Source of the DNA: Planctomycetes bacterium MalM25
GTDB lineage: Bacteria > Planctomycetota > Planctomycetia > Pirellulales > Lacipirellulaceae
Length of the DNA stretch: 64,000 nucleotides
Direction of reading: 5' to 3'
NCBI GenBank assembly: GCA_007745835.1
Contig: CP036424.1
Coordinates: forward strand, 705,001-769,000
The notes under the pieces: generated by a model
Told to the model about the DNA's origin: nothing
Databases searched by the model: none
The model's input: the letters and a program-made list of their open reading frames with translations, nothing else
Program-made: the position numbers and the translations under genes
In this document: in pieces, positions 4,986-38,048 of the stretch
Layout: each line of letters opens with the position of its first letter
Numbering within the stretch: the stretch's first letter is position 1

Positions 4986-5015
4986 GGGCTCCGCCAAGTT
5001 GGCAAATGGGAGCCC
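4986..5015 (+). promoter_or_regulatory. Leader hairpin before groEL1
   Basis: GGGCTCC (4986-4992) pairs with GGAGCCC (5009-5015), and GCCAA...TTGGC pairs inside the loop. It ends 9 nt before the ribosome-binding site GGAGG (5025-5029), so it could affect translation of groEL1. Role is inferred from position only. Confidence 0.35.
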
Positions 5016-5038
5016 ACTCCAACCGGAGGTTTTCCGCC

Positions 5039-6745
<1,707 letters not shown>

Positions 6746-7192: not shown

Positions 7193-7272
7193 AGTCCCCT
7201 CCCCCTTCGGGGGAGGGCTAGGGTGGGGGCGACCCGGGTACCCGCTTCACCCCCACCCCACCCTCCCCCAAA
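7193..7272. repeat. Palindromic repeat, family C copy 1 (between groES and groEL2)
   Basis: CCCCTCCCCCTTCGGGGGAG on the left pairs with CTCCCCCAAAGGGGAGGGAG on the right. The centre GACCCGGGTACCCGCTTC, read on the minus strand, is the same core as in family A copies 3 and 4. Other copies are at 36475-36568 and 54149-54264. It lies 7 nt after the groES stop. Confidence 0.82.
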
Positions 7273-7355
7273 GGGGAGGGAGCTCTGACCGGCCTTTCGA
7301 TCAAAACCACAAGCTCACCAGCCCGTCCCCGGCTGACATCAAACAGGAGCCAATC

Positions 7356-8975
7356 ATGGCCAAACAACTCATGTTCGACGACGCCGCCCGGGCGAAGGTG
7401 ATCGCCGGCGTCGACAAGCTCGCGGACGCGGTGGCGGTCACGATGGGCCCCACCGGCCGCAACGTCATCATCAACAAGTCGTTCGGCGGCCCCACGGTCA
7501 CCAAGGACGGCGTCACGGTCTCCAAGGAGATCGAGCTCGAAGACCCCTTCGAGAACATGGGCGCGAAGCTCGTCCACGAGGTGGCCGACAAGACGTCCAA
7601 GTTCGCCGGCGACGGCACGACGACCGCCACGGTCCTCGCCCGCGCCATCCTGAAAGAGGGCGCCCGCAACATCGTCGCGGGCAGCAACCCGACGGCTGTG
7701 CGTCGCGGCATCGACAAGGCGGCCCAGGCCGTCTGCGATCACCTCGACTCGGTCTCGAAGGCCGTGAGCAGCAAGGAAGAGATCGCCCAGGTCGGCGCCA
7801 TCAGCGCCAACAACGACCGCGTGATCGGTGACCTGCTCGCCGACGCGATGGAGAAGGTCGGCAAGGACGGCGTCATCACCGTCGAAGAGGGCAAGACGAC
7901 CGAGACCACGCTCGAGTTCGTCGAGGGCATGCAGTTCGATAAGGGCTACCTGTCGCCCTACTTCATCAGCGACCAAGCGACCATGGAGGCCGTCCTCGAG
8001 GACGCCTACCTGCTCATCTTCGAGAAGAAGATCAGCAATCTCCGCGAGCTCCTCCCGGTGCTCGAAGCGGCCAGTCAGAAGGGCAAGCCGCTGATGATCG
8101 TCGCCGAGGACGTCGAGGGTGAGGCCCTCGCCGCGCTGGTCGTCAACAAGCTCCGCGGCGTGCTGAACGTCTGCGCCGTGAAGGCGCCCGGCTTCGGCGA
8201 CCGCCGCAAGGCGATGCTCGGCGACATCGCGACGCTCACCGGCGGCACGCTGATCTCCGAAGAGCTCGGCATGAAGCTCGAGGACGTGACCCTGGAGCAC
8301 CTCGGCCGCGCGAAGAAGATCGCCGCGACCAAGGAAGCGACCACGATCGTCCAGGGCGGCGGCTCGACGGCCGACGTGCAGAAGCGGATCGAGCAGATCC
8401 GCCGCAGCATCGAGACCTCGACCAGCGACTACGACAAGGAGAAGCTGCAAGAGCGTCTGGCGAAGCTCACGGGCGGCGTCGCGATCATCTCGGTCGGCGC
8501 CAGCAGCGAAGCGGACATGAAGCAGAAGAAGGCCCGCGTCGAAGACGCGCTGCACGCCACGCGGGCGGCCGTCGAAGAGGGCATCCTGCCCGGCGGCGGC
8601 GTCGCGTTGCTCCGCAGCCAGGAGGCGGTCGCCTCGGCCCGCTCGGCCGCCAAGGGCGACGAGAAGATCGGCGTCGACATCGTCGCCGGCGTCCTCGACG
8701 CCCCGCTGAAGCAGATCGCCAGCAACGGCGGCCTGCAGGGCAGCGTGATCGCCGACGAGGTCAGCCAGAAGGGCAAGAACATCGGTTTCAACGCCAACGC
8801 CGGCGAGTACACCGACATGTTCAAGGCGGGTGTCATCGACCCGGCCAAGGTCGTGAAGACGGCCATCACCAACGCCGCTTCGATCGCTGGCCTGCTGCTC
8901 ACGACCGAGGCCCTGGTCACCAACTTCGACTCGAAGGACGACGAGAAGCGGGCGATCACCGGCAGCATCCGCTGA
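7356..8975 (+). CDS. groEL: Chaperonin GroEL, copy 2 (no Gly-Met tail)
   Basis: A 539-residue Hsp60 with [40 protein letters not shown] and [14 protein letters not shown], so ATP binding and ring architecture should be intact. AACAGGAG precedes the ATG. It ends [13 protein letters not shown], with no GGM tail. The gene is full length and ends at a terminator, so it is not truncated by frameshift. Divergent second GroELs with altered tails are known to serve special clients in several phyla; the client here is unknown. It sits directly downstream of groES. Confidence 0.95.
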
Positions 8976-31940: not shown

Positions 31941-32101
31941 GTGTTTCTGGGGGCCGGTTGCGATTTTCTGGGGCCGGTTGCGACCCGGCTGCCCCGCGCT
32001 CCGCTTGGCTCGCCAATGCCCTGCGGGCTTCGGCTTTCGCCCGCGGAGCGGGGGGTGTAGGGAGGGTGGACTTTCACCTACGGGTGGATGTCGATTAGAT
32101 C

Positions 32102-32171
32102 GGGAGGGCGAGGCTCCTGCCGAGCCGGAAGCGGGTACCCGGGGCCGGCTCCGCAGGAGCGTCGCCCTCCC
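32102..32171. repeat. Palindromic repeat, family A copy 3
   Basis: GGGAGGGCGAGGCTCCTGCC pairs with GCAGGAGCGTCGCCCTCCC. The centre GGAAGCGGGTACCCGGGGCC is the core also found, reversed, inside family C. It is part of the first full 190-bp tandem unit. Confidence 0.82.
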
Positions 32172-32290
32172 AACCCGGCCTCCCGGCGCTCCGCTTGGCT
32201 CGCCAACGCCCTGTGGGCATCGGCTTGCGCCCGCGGAGCGAGCGGTGTAGGGAGGGTGGACTTTCACTGCGGGATGGATGTCGCTTTCAT

Positions 32291-32360
32291 CGGGAGGGCG
32301 AGGCTCCTGCCGAGCCGGAAGCGGGTACCCGGGGCCGGCTCCGCAGGAGCGTCGCCCTCC
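32291..32360. repeat. Palindromic repeat, family A copy 4
   Basis: Identical in sequence to the element 190 bp upstream, carried in the second tandem unit. Confidence 0.82.
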
Positions 32361-32527
32361 CAACCCGGCCTCCCGGCGCTCTGCTTGGCTCGCCAACGCC
32401 CTGTGGGCATCGGCTTGCGCCCGCGGAGCGGGAAGCGGTTGGTGGATGGCTTGGGTGATGGGCGTCGGTGGGCAACGTGGCTACAGTTCGATAACGGTCC
32501 ACATACCACCGGTCACTGGCCACTCTC

Positions 32528-34796: not shown

Positions 34797-35222
34797 ATGT
34801 CTGACGAAGAGAAGAAGATCCTCATCGACGAGGACTGGAAGTCCCAAGTTGAAGCCGAAAAACAGGCGGCCGCGGAGCAATCCGCAGGCGAGTCCCCAGC
34901 ATCCGATGGCGAGCCCCCAACGTCAGTTGGGGGTGTGGGTGACAGCGAAGCAGCCGCCGGCTCTCCCGACGACCCCCCGATGCCCGAGGCGTCGATCGGC
35001 ATGCTGATGTCGTCTCTGGCGACCGAAGCGCTGATCTCCATGGGCCAGTTCCCCCACCCCGCCACGGGCGAGGTGATCCGCCGGCCGAATCAGGCGAAGT
35101 ACCTGATCGACACGTTGGCCATGCTCAAAGAGAAGACCGAGGGCAATCTCTCCGCCGAGGAGACCGCCGCCCTCGACGACGTGCTGCACCAGCTCCGCAT
35201 GGCGTTCGTGGCGGGAAAGTAG
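34797..35222 (+). CDS. DUF1844-family protein
   Basis: A 141-residue protein. Residues about 1-60 are charged low complexity. The conserved C-terminal part, IGMLMSSLATEALISMGQFP then NQAKYLIDTLAMLKEKTEGN and LDDVLHQLRMAFV, is DUF1844, a short helical domain common in Planctomycetes and related phyla with no known function. Its TAG stop (35220-35222) is inside the left arm of a palindromic repeat. Confidence 0.85.
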   Translation: MSDEEKKILIDEDWKSQVEAEKQAAAEQSAGESPASDGEPPTSVGGVGDSEAAAGSPDDPPMPEASIGMLMSSLATEALISMGQFPHPATGEVIRRPNQAKYLIDTLAMLKEKTEGNLSAEETAALDDVLHQLRMAFVAGK

Positions 35223-35323: not shown

Positions 35324-35884
35324 GTGTTACCCTCGGCCGGTGTCTTCTTCTCAGAAGGTCCACCCGGGAACGTCCGCTTGTCCGAGCGAGTCACCGCCGA
35401 TCGGCTCGGTCAGCTGCTGGCCCAGCACGGGCCGGCGCTTGCGCTGGCGGCGGCCCAGTGGACCGACGCCGCTGACGATTGCGTGCAGGAAGCCCTGATC
35501 GAACTCGCCGCGCTGCCGTCCGCCCCCGAGCGTCCGGCCGCTTGGCTGTTCAAGCGGGTGCGGCAGCGGGCGCTCAACGCAGCACGCGCCCAACGCCGTC
35601 GCCGCGACCACGAATCGACCGCCTGGCGGGATCGATTGCGGCCCTGCGCTGGCGCGATGGATTCAGCGGAGACGCTCGACCTGATCGAGGCCCTCGCCGA
35701 GCTCACGCCCGAAGACCGCGAGCTGGTCACGCTCCGCTTCTTCAGCGACCTGTCGTACGCCGAGATCGCCGAAGCGGTCGGCGGATCGACATCCAACGCC
35801 CACCGCCGCACCGAGAAGGCGCTCGCCCAACTCCGCCGCCGATTGGAGGCCCCGTGTCCGAAACGGATCCGAACAACGACCTGA
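35324..35884 (+). CDS. ECF-type sigma-70 family sigma factor
   Basis: About 186 residues from GTG; a TTG at 35378 (SERVTADRLGQLL) is a plausible alternative start. AADDCVQEALIELAALP is region 2 and LTPEDRELVTLRFFSDLSYA then EIAEAVGGSTSNAHRRTEKA is region 4 with its helix-turn-helix. It would direct RNA polymerase to a special promoter set. Its last 31 bases overlap the start of a membrane-protein gene that may be its regulator, and two secreted-protein genes follow; these are candidate targets or partners. Confidence 0.85.
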   Translation: MLPSAGVFFSEGPPGNVRLSERVTADRLGQLLAQHGPALALAAAQWTDAADDCVQEALIELAALPSAPERPAAWLFKRVRQRALNAARAQRRRRDHESTAWRDRLRPCAGAMDSAETLDLIEALAELTPEDRELVTLRFFSDLSYAEIAEAVGGSTSNAHRRTEKALAQLRRRLEAPCPKRIRTTT

Positions 35885-36432
35885 TCGCCCGCTACCGCGC
35901 GGCGTTCGACCCACCGCCGCCGACGCTCGACGAGCGCACCCTCTGGTACGAGGCGGGCCGCGCCGCCGCTGCGCCCCAGCCGGGCGGCTGGTTGCTGCCG
36001 GCTTATTCGGGCGCGGTGACCGTGCTGGCCGCTTCGTTGGCTTGGGCGCTGGTGCGCCCGCCGGTTGCGGAGCCGCCCGCGGCGGCGCCCCCGATGCTCG
36101 TCGCCACGCCGGCGCCGACCGAGCCGGCGTCCGAGGAGCCGATTGAGGGCGACGAACCGGCGCTCACGCCCTGGGCGAAGTTGTTCCCCGCGTCGCTCCC
36201 GGCGCGGAACGCCTACGCCGAGCGGCAGCAGCGGATGCTCCGCGATGACTTCATAAGAGACAACGAGATCGCCACGACCGTACCGTTCGAGTACGAGCCC
36301 GCGCCGCCTGCGACCCGCGAGCGGCTCCTGGAGGAGTACCTCCCCAACCGCGACCTCCCCGTCCCGCCCAAGCCGTCCGAGGGCCGGCAGAACACCCAAC
36401 AGACGCGCCGCGGCGCGAAGGAGCTGGCATGA
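35854..36432 (+). CDS. Single-pass membrane protein, possible anti-sigma partner
   Basis: A 192-residue protein. The GTG at 35854 follows GGAGG (35845-35849) and gives SETDPNNDLIARYRAAFDPP. A single hydrophobic segment (WLLPAYSGAVTVLAASLAWA) near residues 40-60 is followed by a Pro/Ala-rich periplasmic part. The layout (short cytoplasmic part, one membrane span, gene overlapping an ECF sigma gene) fits an anti-sigma factor, but no ZAS or other anti-sigma motif is visible. The stop overlaps the next start as ATGA. Confidence 0.65.
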   Translation: MSETDPNNDLIARYRAAFDPPPPTLDERTLWYEAGRAAAAPQPGGWLLPAYSGAVTVLAASLAWALVRPPVAEPPAAAPPMLVATPAPTEPASEEPIEGDEPALTPWAKLFPASLPARNAYAERQQRMLRDDFIRDNEIATTVPFEYEPAPPATRERLLEEYLPNRDLPVPPKPSEGRQNTQQTRRGAKELA

Positions 36433-38048
36433 GTGAGCGAGTAAGCGGTAGGCAGAAGGCGGTAGGCAGTCGGACTTCCCTCCCCCTTTGGGGGAGGGCC
36501 AGGGTGGGGGCGCCCCGGGTACCCACTTCACCCCCACCCCAACCCTCCCCCAAAGGGGGAGGGAGTTCTTGGCTCCTCGCCGCCCTCTGCCTACTGCCTA
36601 GTGCCTACAGCTTTGCCGACGCGGAGCACCTTGAGGACGAGGACAACCCGAGCCTCACGATCATTCGCATGGAGGTCACGCCCGCGGACGAAGCGGTCCC
36701 GGCGTTCAAGCACCGGCTGATCTACGATCTGCACGAACGGCTCCCCGGCAACCGACCGCAGTGGTACGCGCGGACTTATCCAGAAGAGGCGCCGGGTTTC
36801 CGAGCCTGGGTTGTGGCCACCAGCCGGGATCATGAGGCTTTCGAAGAATACTACCAGTCAGGCGTACCAGTTCGCCAAGTTGATTGGAGTCAGTTCGAGG
36901 TGCCTCTTAAAGTTGCGAAGAGCTTTTATGAGAACTACCTCGTCCCGGCGGCACGACGACGAGACTGTGACTGGGGCCTGCATTCAGAGAGCGTCACGGG
37001 ACCCGAGCTCATTCAGTTCTTGCTGCCCGAGTTTCAAGGGAGTCGGGAGTTCGCTCGGATGGGCAATGCCGCGACGAGGCAGGCTATTGCTGAGGAACGT
37101 TACGAAGACGCCATCACCTACCTGAGAACGCAGTACCAGCTCAGTCGCGATGTCGCTGAGGAGCCGTTCCTGGTTTGCAGCCTCGTCGGTATCGCCATCT
37201 CGGGTATCGCCAACGTGGGGGCGACGGACCTCATCGCAGCGCCCGGCTCACCGAACCTCTACTGGGCCTTGTCCGAGCTCCCCTCGCCACCGGTGTCAAT
37301 CGCCGAGACCTTCAACGCGGAGCTCGCGATCGCCGAGCGGATGTTCCCGGTCCTGAGCGATGCGGAAAGTGTAGAGCGGACCGGGGCTCAATGGAACGAA
37401 GTGTGGCGGGACCTGGTGCAGGGCACGCAAGACGGGACCATCAACAGTCGCGGAGTGTTCCGTGGCAGCGCCCTCGACGTAGCGCCCGTGCTGTTCGGTT
37501 TGTCCGGCTATACGCACGCAAAGGGTCGTCTACTCGATTGGGGGCACGAGCCCGCGTCCGTGGAAGCGATGTCGGTGGGCCAGGTCTTGACGATTTACAC
37601 GGCGCGTGTGGTGAAGATCGCCGCGGATGAGTACCGGAAGGCGAATGTCACGGACATCCCTTTCTCTGACTTGCGCCGAATCGGTGAAGCCGCGGACAAT
37701 CGTTTGCGGGAGATGCGGCCGTTCCATTCAGGTCAGAACCGCGAGATCGTTCCGATCGCTGACCTCTTGTTGCCGGCTATTCAAGCCGCCCGCAGCGCCG
37801 AGGTCCGCATCGCCCGCGACGTCGCCGCGTTGCGGGTCATCGAGGCCCTCCGCATGCACGCCGCTCGGAACAACGACCGATGGCCACGCTCGCTCGAGGA
37901 CGTGACCTGCGTGCCGATCCCGCTCAACCCGGCGACCGATAAGCCATTCCTTTATCACCGCGACGGCAGGACGGCCGTGCTCGAACTGCCCGACTGGGAG
38001 GGCTTCCCCGGCTACTCGCGGCGGTACGAGATCACGATCAAGCCCTGA
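36429..38048 (+). CDS. Exported protein of unknown function with repeat-derived N-terminus
   Basis: A 539-residue protein. The ATG overlaps the previous stop (ATGA). Residues about 1-62 are encoded by a nested palindromic element (36444-36608), including the hydrophobic signal core WLLAALCLLPSAYSFADA. The body has no family I recognise; the C-terminal block AALRVIEALRMHAARNNDRW then PRSLEDVTCVPIPLNP is common in secreted planctomycete proteins. Bases about 36790-37750 have lower GC than both ends, suggesting a mosaic. An alternative in-frame GTG is at 36504. Translational coupling to the upstream gene is likely. Confidence 0.65.
   Translation: MSERVSGRQKAVGSRTSLPLWGRARVGAPRVPTSPPPQPSPKGGGSSWLLAALCLLPSAYSFADAEHLEDEDNPSLTIIRMEVTPADEAVPAFKHRLIYDLHERLPGNRPQWYARTYPEEAPGFRAWVVATSRDHEAFEEYYQSGVPVRQVDWSQFEVPLKVAKSFYENYLVPAARRRDCDWGLHSESVTGPELIQFLLPEFQGSREFARMGNAATRQAIAEERYEDAITYLRTQYQLSRDVAEEPFLVCSLVGIAISGIANVGATDLIAAPGSPNLYWALSELPSPPVSIAETFNAELAIAERMFPVLSDAESVERTGAQWNEVWRDLVQGTQDGTINSRGVFRGSALDVAPVLFGLSGYTHAKGRLLDWGHEPASVEAMSVGQVLTIYTARVVKIAADEYRKANVTDIPFSDLRRIGEAADNRLREMRPFHSGQNREIVPIADLLLPAIQAARSAEVRIARDVAALRVIEALRMHAARNNDRWPRSLEDVTCVPIPLNPATDKPFLYHRDGRTAVLELPDWEGFPGYSRRYEITIKP
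36444..36608. repeat. Nested palindrome: family C (36475-36568) inside family D arms
   Basis: Outer arms AGCGGTAGGCAGAAGGCGGT (36444 on) and CTGCCTACTGCCTAGTGCCT (to 36608) belong to family D. Between them is a family C element: TCCCTCCCCCTTTGGGGGAG pairing with CCCTCCCCCAAAGGGGGAGG, centre GCCCCGGGTACCCACTTCA. The whole element is read in frame by the gene at 36429. Confidence 0.8.

Follow-up and report, generated by a model that had tools for sequence, protein, structure and literature searches.

The gene at 36429..38048 of Planctomycetes bacterium MalM25 encodes a predicted exported protein of 539 codons. Its ancestor probably carried an ordinary signal peptide behind an overlap start, and this signal peptide is likely to have been rebuilt by two palindromic repeats, named families D and E, that are nested in the coding start. 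As judged from the sequence, the element would have taken the place of the older signal peptide's n-region and of much of its hydrophobic core. The origin of new signal peptides is seldom visible. Here, a single orthologous gene with several captures makes the source, the direction and the outcome comparable between sister species. The gene lies within a 64,000-nt stretch, hereafter called the window, of a 4.72-Mb genome present as one contig. Coordinates are those of the window, and the features described for this locus are on the + strand.

The gene row opens with an ECF-type sigma factor gene (35324..35884; Pfam Sigma70_r4_2, E 1.7e-12, and Sigma70_r2, E 4.4e-7). The gene that follows (35881..36432, with the start at 35881 assumed) has a single hydrophobic stretch; nothing scored above the Pfam cut-off for it, and NCBIfam returned nothing. 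Its TGA is overlapped by ATG 36429 in the motif ATGA. A Shine–Dalgarno site, AAGGAG (36418..36423), stands 5 nt ahead of this ATG. In agreement with the initial annotation, gene 36429 starts in the overlap and reads through the nested element in a single open frame of 539 codons. The family is nameless: the protein matched neither a Pfam nor an NCBIfam family, and a search of the PDB with its model gave no match at E ≤ 0.001, so that these searches gave no known family or fold. The AF2 model, built with 34 sequences, has a mean pLDDT of 84.3. Confidence falls below 50 at residues 1–40 and 42–63 and is good from about residue 65, the modelled fold starting directly past the nested element. An Rfam scan of the window identified one tRNA.

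The element consists of family D heptamer arms enclosing a G/C-rich palindrome of family E. Both are in the frame of gene 36429, as had been noticed when the nested palindrome was first placed within the coding start. The order read from the sequence is MSER of the host, VSGRQKAVGSR of the left D arm and its neighbour, family E, TGG, CTCCTCG, ALCLLPSAY, and SFADA. The left arm, made of TAGGCAG units (about 36440..36470), reads VSGRQKAVGS. The inner palindrome (36477..36564, its end lying perhaps at ~36572) reads SLPLWGRARVGAPRVPTSPPPQPSPKGGGS; its 34-nt arms are 91% complementary and flank a 20-nt loop. The TGG ahead of CTCCTCG probably closes family E. CTCCTCG (36573–36579) may be old core instead of repeat; together with the bases after it, it agrees with the same-genus genome G001 at 14 of 15 positions. 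The right D arm (36580..36608) reads ALCLLPSAY. It is followed by SFADA (36609..36623), a c-region with an A-x-A ahead of E66. SFADA is probably host sequence, and its position matches that of the orthologue c-region. Cleavage is predicted at the A-x-A before E66. The proposal that the right D arm encodes the hydrophobic core holds for much of the core, but the arm proper contributes only ALCLLPSAY, residues 52–60. The MalM25 D copy is open in only one + frame, and the D copy of G020 (Adhaeretor mobilis) is, by eye, in the same reading frame.

Gene 36429 was matched in 41 of 59 genomes; among genomes of the family, 32 of 43 gave a match. Both counts include its own genome and some weak or partial matches. 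Among three genomes of the same genus, only G001 has a clear orthologue. Named genomes contributed 186 relatives, of which the best 80 were retained. Removal of duplicates left 99 rows for comparison, 98 of which have 240 nt upstream. The loci of G020 and of G028 (Lacipirellula limnantheis) are identical to named ones, and "family" rows were taken as Lacipirellulaceae, since A. mobilis belongs there. We inspected the N-termini of 30 loci. Nearly all run from a start through a hydrophobic core to the mature part, which aligns with residue 66 onward of gene 36429; L031, outside the family, has no clear signal in the stretch inspected. G001 reads ALLAALIAATFSATASA immediately ahead of the mature part. 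Because orthologues show this succession of start, core and mature part, export of the protein very probably predates the arrival of the element. A hydrophobic core is found in all 30 family rows (peak ≥ 1.97), and for this reason the element would not have created secretion. The initial annotation had proposed the birth of a signal peptide from a repeat and named the orthologues free of the repeat as one check. In these element-free family orthologues, the corresponding position already holds a signal-like N-terminus. We therefore dropped the de novo birth of secretion in favour of the replacement or rebuilding of an existing signal.

A second potential start, GTG 36504..36506, lies within family E at codon 26, with GGAGG 6 nt ahead, and there is no in-frame start codon between it and ATG 36669. 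From this GTG, reading would take in the right D arm but only the right part of E, yielding a shorter and more ordinary signal peptide with a basic n-region of ~22 residues and an unchanged core. We consider such a start unlikely, its ribosome-binding motif and its product notwithstanding: the GTG is buried in a very stable predicted RNA hairpin (−153.8 kcal/mol for 36400–36640), and an overlap start with a Shine–Dalgarno site is the arrangement common to orthologues. By a mechanical test requiring an in-frame ATGA, GTGA or TTGA and a long open upstream frame, the overlap start was found in 24 of the 30 family rows and in 55 of the 99 rows overall, MalM25 included; a simple criterion detects a Shine–Dalgarno site in 42 of these 55. 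Both ATG 36429 and GTG 36504 could be in use.

Translation from ATG 36429 would give an N-terminus with the features of a predicted Sec signal, as read from the sequence: an n-region with a charge of about +7, WLLAALCLLPSAY, and A-D-A ahead of E66. This n-region, of ~47 residues, is unusually long. The 12-residue Kyte–Doolittle peak is 1.97, for WLLAALCLLPSA. It is the lowest among the 30 family rows; the 98 other rows have a mean of 2.46 (sd 0.37), and six of them are lower. The weakest core of the family, the very long n-region and the strong predicted hairpin close behind the start codon are consistent with an element that broke the export signal, leaving the product inside the cell or the gene in decay. 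We judge this quite improbable, as the frame stays open through all 539 codons, identity to the same-genus orthologue is 54–55%, and the family orthologues L010, L024 and L025, which have in-frame palindromes, retain cores of 2.08 to 2.62. A start downstream at ATG 36669, which would make the palindromes a 5′ untranslated control element, is highly improbable: many REPs at gene starts have been proposed as control elements, the predicted N-termini there being perhaps noncoding (PMC3733652, in the portion of that article consulted), and other D copies often finish right ahead of a start codon, but this ATG is residue 81, lies within the conserved domain, falls inside the modelled strand 76–83 and would give a signal-less product, unlike the family orthologues.

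The proposed rebuilding of the signal peptide behind ATG 36429 is accompanied by the recurrence of other palindromes at the same place. We scored inverted repeats in the 240 nt ahead of the mature part of 98 orthologues. A score of at least 15 was reached in nine (L128, L125, L025, L009, L017, L146, L095, L092, and L010), as compared with none of 486 windows from the mature gene, 1 of 186 taken further upstream (−720 to −240), and 0 of 490 shuffles. At a score of at least 12, the corresponding numbers were 13/98 orthologues, 1/486, 3/186, and 2/490. Three of the nine strong inverted repeats (L017, L146, and L092) are located ahead of the likely start, as are the weaker ones of L100, L101, and L133. 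Others are weak but in frame: L098 (score 13), L096 (12), and L024 (11, family D by eye). An in-frame palindrome lies between the start and the core at nine loci including MalM25: L009, L010, L024, L025, L095, L096, L098, L125, and L128. Later starts are possible at four of them, namely a GTG just past the palindrome in L125 and L128, a TTG in the core of L098, and an ATG in the loop of L010.

L095 and L096, and likewise L125 and L128, are close pairs in the gene tree. Including MalM25, we count seven distinct palindrome events, or six if family D in MalM25 and in G020 represents one event. Family D is at the same offset in both genes. Separate landings are favoured because the sister species differ: in the gene tree, MalM25 is the sister of G001 and G020 that of G008, and the palindromes differ within each pair. 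As sister pairs carry different families, palindrome turnover appears to be fast. Dispersed families occupy four of the sites. Two of these are that of MalM25, whose genome contains D and E, and that of G020, with D (29 pattern sites). The G001 palindrome recurs at 26 sites of its own genome and at none of G000, and that of G008 at 59 sites of its own genome and at 50 of G020, against 1 and 2 for the controls. The comparison with other genes was restricted to family rows. At a score of at least 15, gene 36429 gave 4/30 (one of them, L017, ahead of the start), a signal-less gene 1/30 (ahead of its start), and an exported gene 0/27; these gene controls are small and imperfect, the signal-less gene having an overlap-type start in only 10/30 rows and the exported one perhaps being coupled, since the overlap screen missed gene 36429 as well. 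The contrast is in the expected direction and small. With different palindromes at this spot in several relatives, repeats appear to have landed more than once at the start of this gene.

We propose the following history. Coupled genes of this type have no spacer, since they overlap, and the n-region would be the first stretch past the start codon to tolerate an insert. A D palindrome would have landed in its sole stop-free + frame, and E would have been placed in its loop, an insertion order that is predicted. The left D arm and E would make the long basic n-region of about +7. The right D arm would provide much of the core, with the predicted loss of the old one, the host retaining the cleavage-site region. 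Export would continue through a rebuilt signal peptide of ~65 residues and is predicted to work. In the other species, palindromes landing in an open frame would likewise be kept and would lengthen the n-region; in MalM25, much of the core would have been replaced as well. Selection would then maintain the basic n-region, the core and the cleavage site. We suggest, tentatively, that in Planctomycetota selfish palindromes repeatedly find a safe harbour in the n-region past the coupled start of an exported protein, where inserts turn over and rebuild signal peptides, and that signal peptides may evolve in part by repeat capture. For annotation, trimming such starts to a "cleaner" start would remove the export signal.

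The closest precedent is RU-2 in Yersinia YPO1552. According to the part of the source available to us, RU-2 makes up a portion of the signal peptide predicted for YPO1552, and other genera have unrelated signals (Delihas 2007; PMC2759123). That locus has one element, whereas MalM25 has nested elements past an overlap start that its relatives share, and the MalM25 gene family shows one place reused by different palindromes. In the open-access literature, we found no account of nested palindromes in a signal peptide (the gene itself being nameless), no account of one signal-peptide site reused by different palindrome families, and nothing on Lacipirellulaceae together with repeats or palindromes.

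Families D and E are both dispersed in the MalM25 genome. In the window, the D heptamer pattern has 14 matches against 0.82 expected, and none of 100 shuffles reached 14. Twenty-four of 66 D arms lie 3–17 nt ahead of a coding-like start; one, L226, seems to be gene-internal. Right arms ending a few nucleotides short of the coding-like start of the following gene, where a Shine–Dalgarno site is expected, include L193, L195, L197, L202, L204, L206, and L212, as well as L218, L236, L245 and others. A coding-like start occurs within 40 nt of 25/66 D arms and of 830/4000 random places, a rough contrast, some places being intragenic. Upstream of gene 36429, the TAG stop (35220–35222) of the frame 34797–35222 is the opening TAG of a D heptamer, so that the repeat provides the stop of its neighbour. 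In G020, locus L229 (1236–1448) has ~17 TGGGCAG units in a row, with a shorter opposite arm and a 77-nt loop, and at L228 (~1199–1224) a D arm seems to be in frame within a gene, which we take to be that for glycine dehydrogenase subunit 2.

The make-up of family D appears to suit such a harbour. The consensus left arm has one open frame of three, reading SRQRAVGS, and is basic in it. The perfect right-arm heptamer would be hydrophobic in every frame, all three being shifts of LPTAYCL. Actual copies are less favourable: most vary and would make poor cores. The 153 stop-free frames of the 66 D arms have a mean hydrophobic peak of 0.57; seven reach 1.5 (4.4% of random stretches do) and one reaches 1.97 (1.8% of random stretches). 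Twenty-four D copies gave 62 fully open readings, five of which are signal-like, that of the MalM25 copy among them. We therefore rejected the D arm as a ready-made signal in general. The MalM25 D arm is exceptional as a core. This is due either to a later change of LPTALC to LLAALC, with the loss of a proline, or to LLA being a relic of the old core.

Family E has at least 62 raw matches in the genome, on both strands (40 of 84 candidates were scored), and at least about 36 copies, full or partial, were told apart on reading; a comparison with MITEs showed, by eye, inverted ends across copies. Five of the ~36 copies (L263, L267, L277, L256, and L264) have a coding-like frame on both sides. 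The hosts of L263, L267 and L277 are, by NCBIfam, genes for UvrA, IleRS and MutS. UvrA and MutS are above the cut-off, and their profile match picks up again just past the insert; the IleRS match, from a partial gene, is under the cut-off. In one of the two other hosts, a DNA-methyltransferase match precedes the insert; the other has no family. The copy in gene 36429 was not flagged by the both-sides criterion; its frame scored as coding in a separate test. Because the UvrA, MutS and IleRS genes carry E in frame, translation of E in gene 36429 appears likely. Family E is a dispersed palindrome situated both between genes and in frame in conserved genes, as are RPE-kind elements. The observation that the same arm is intergenic in other copies applies to many D copies but does not extend to the inner palindrome, as E is in frame in five other open frames.

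In-frame repeats have known counterparts. In the accessible parts of the sources, Rickettsia palindromic elements (Ogata et al. 2000) form in-frame fusions in many protein genes, and one gene product bearing such an element has been shown to be translated (PMC2229807, PMC10969869). They belong to another phylum and occur in many kinds of genes, and the arrangement described there is not that of a signal peptide; the likeness is claimed for the way of working only. The GTAG/CGTC REPs with RAYT transposases are, as described in the portion consulted, small palindromes dispersed close to the ends of genes, some of them, in several species, inside repair genes such as uvrA (PMC3733652). Similarly, family E is found within the uvrA and mutS genes of MalM25. 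REPs measure 20–40 bp, and families D and E are longer. Neither D nor E was found, by four exact patterns, in the ~0.8–1 kb read on each side of the six Y1_Tnp matches of the genome, and no RAYT partner was seen within this distance. One D copy lies ~1.7 kb from the Y1_Tnp match at 1499508, beyond the stretch read. Elsewhere in the window, a 190-nt unit is repeated in tandem at 31983–32449, with 82–91% similarity between the parts compared and inverted repeats close by. A family E copy at ~7197–7281 lies between the genes 5006–6745 and 7356–8975, both presumably GroEL-like.
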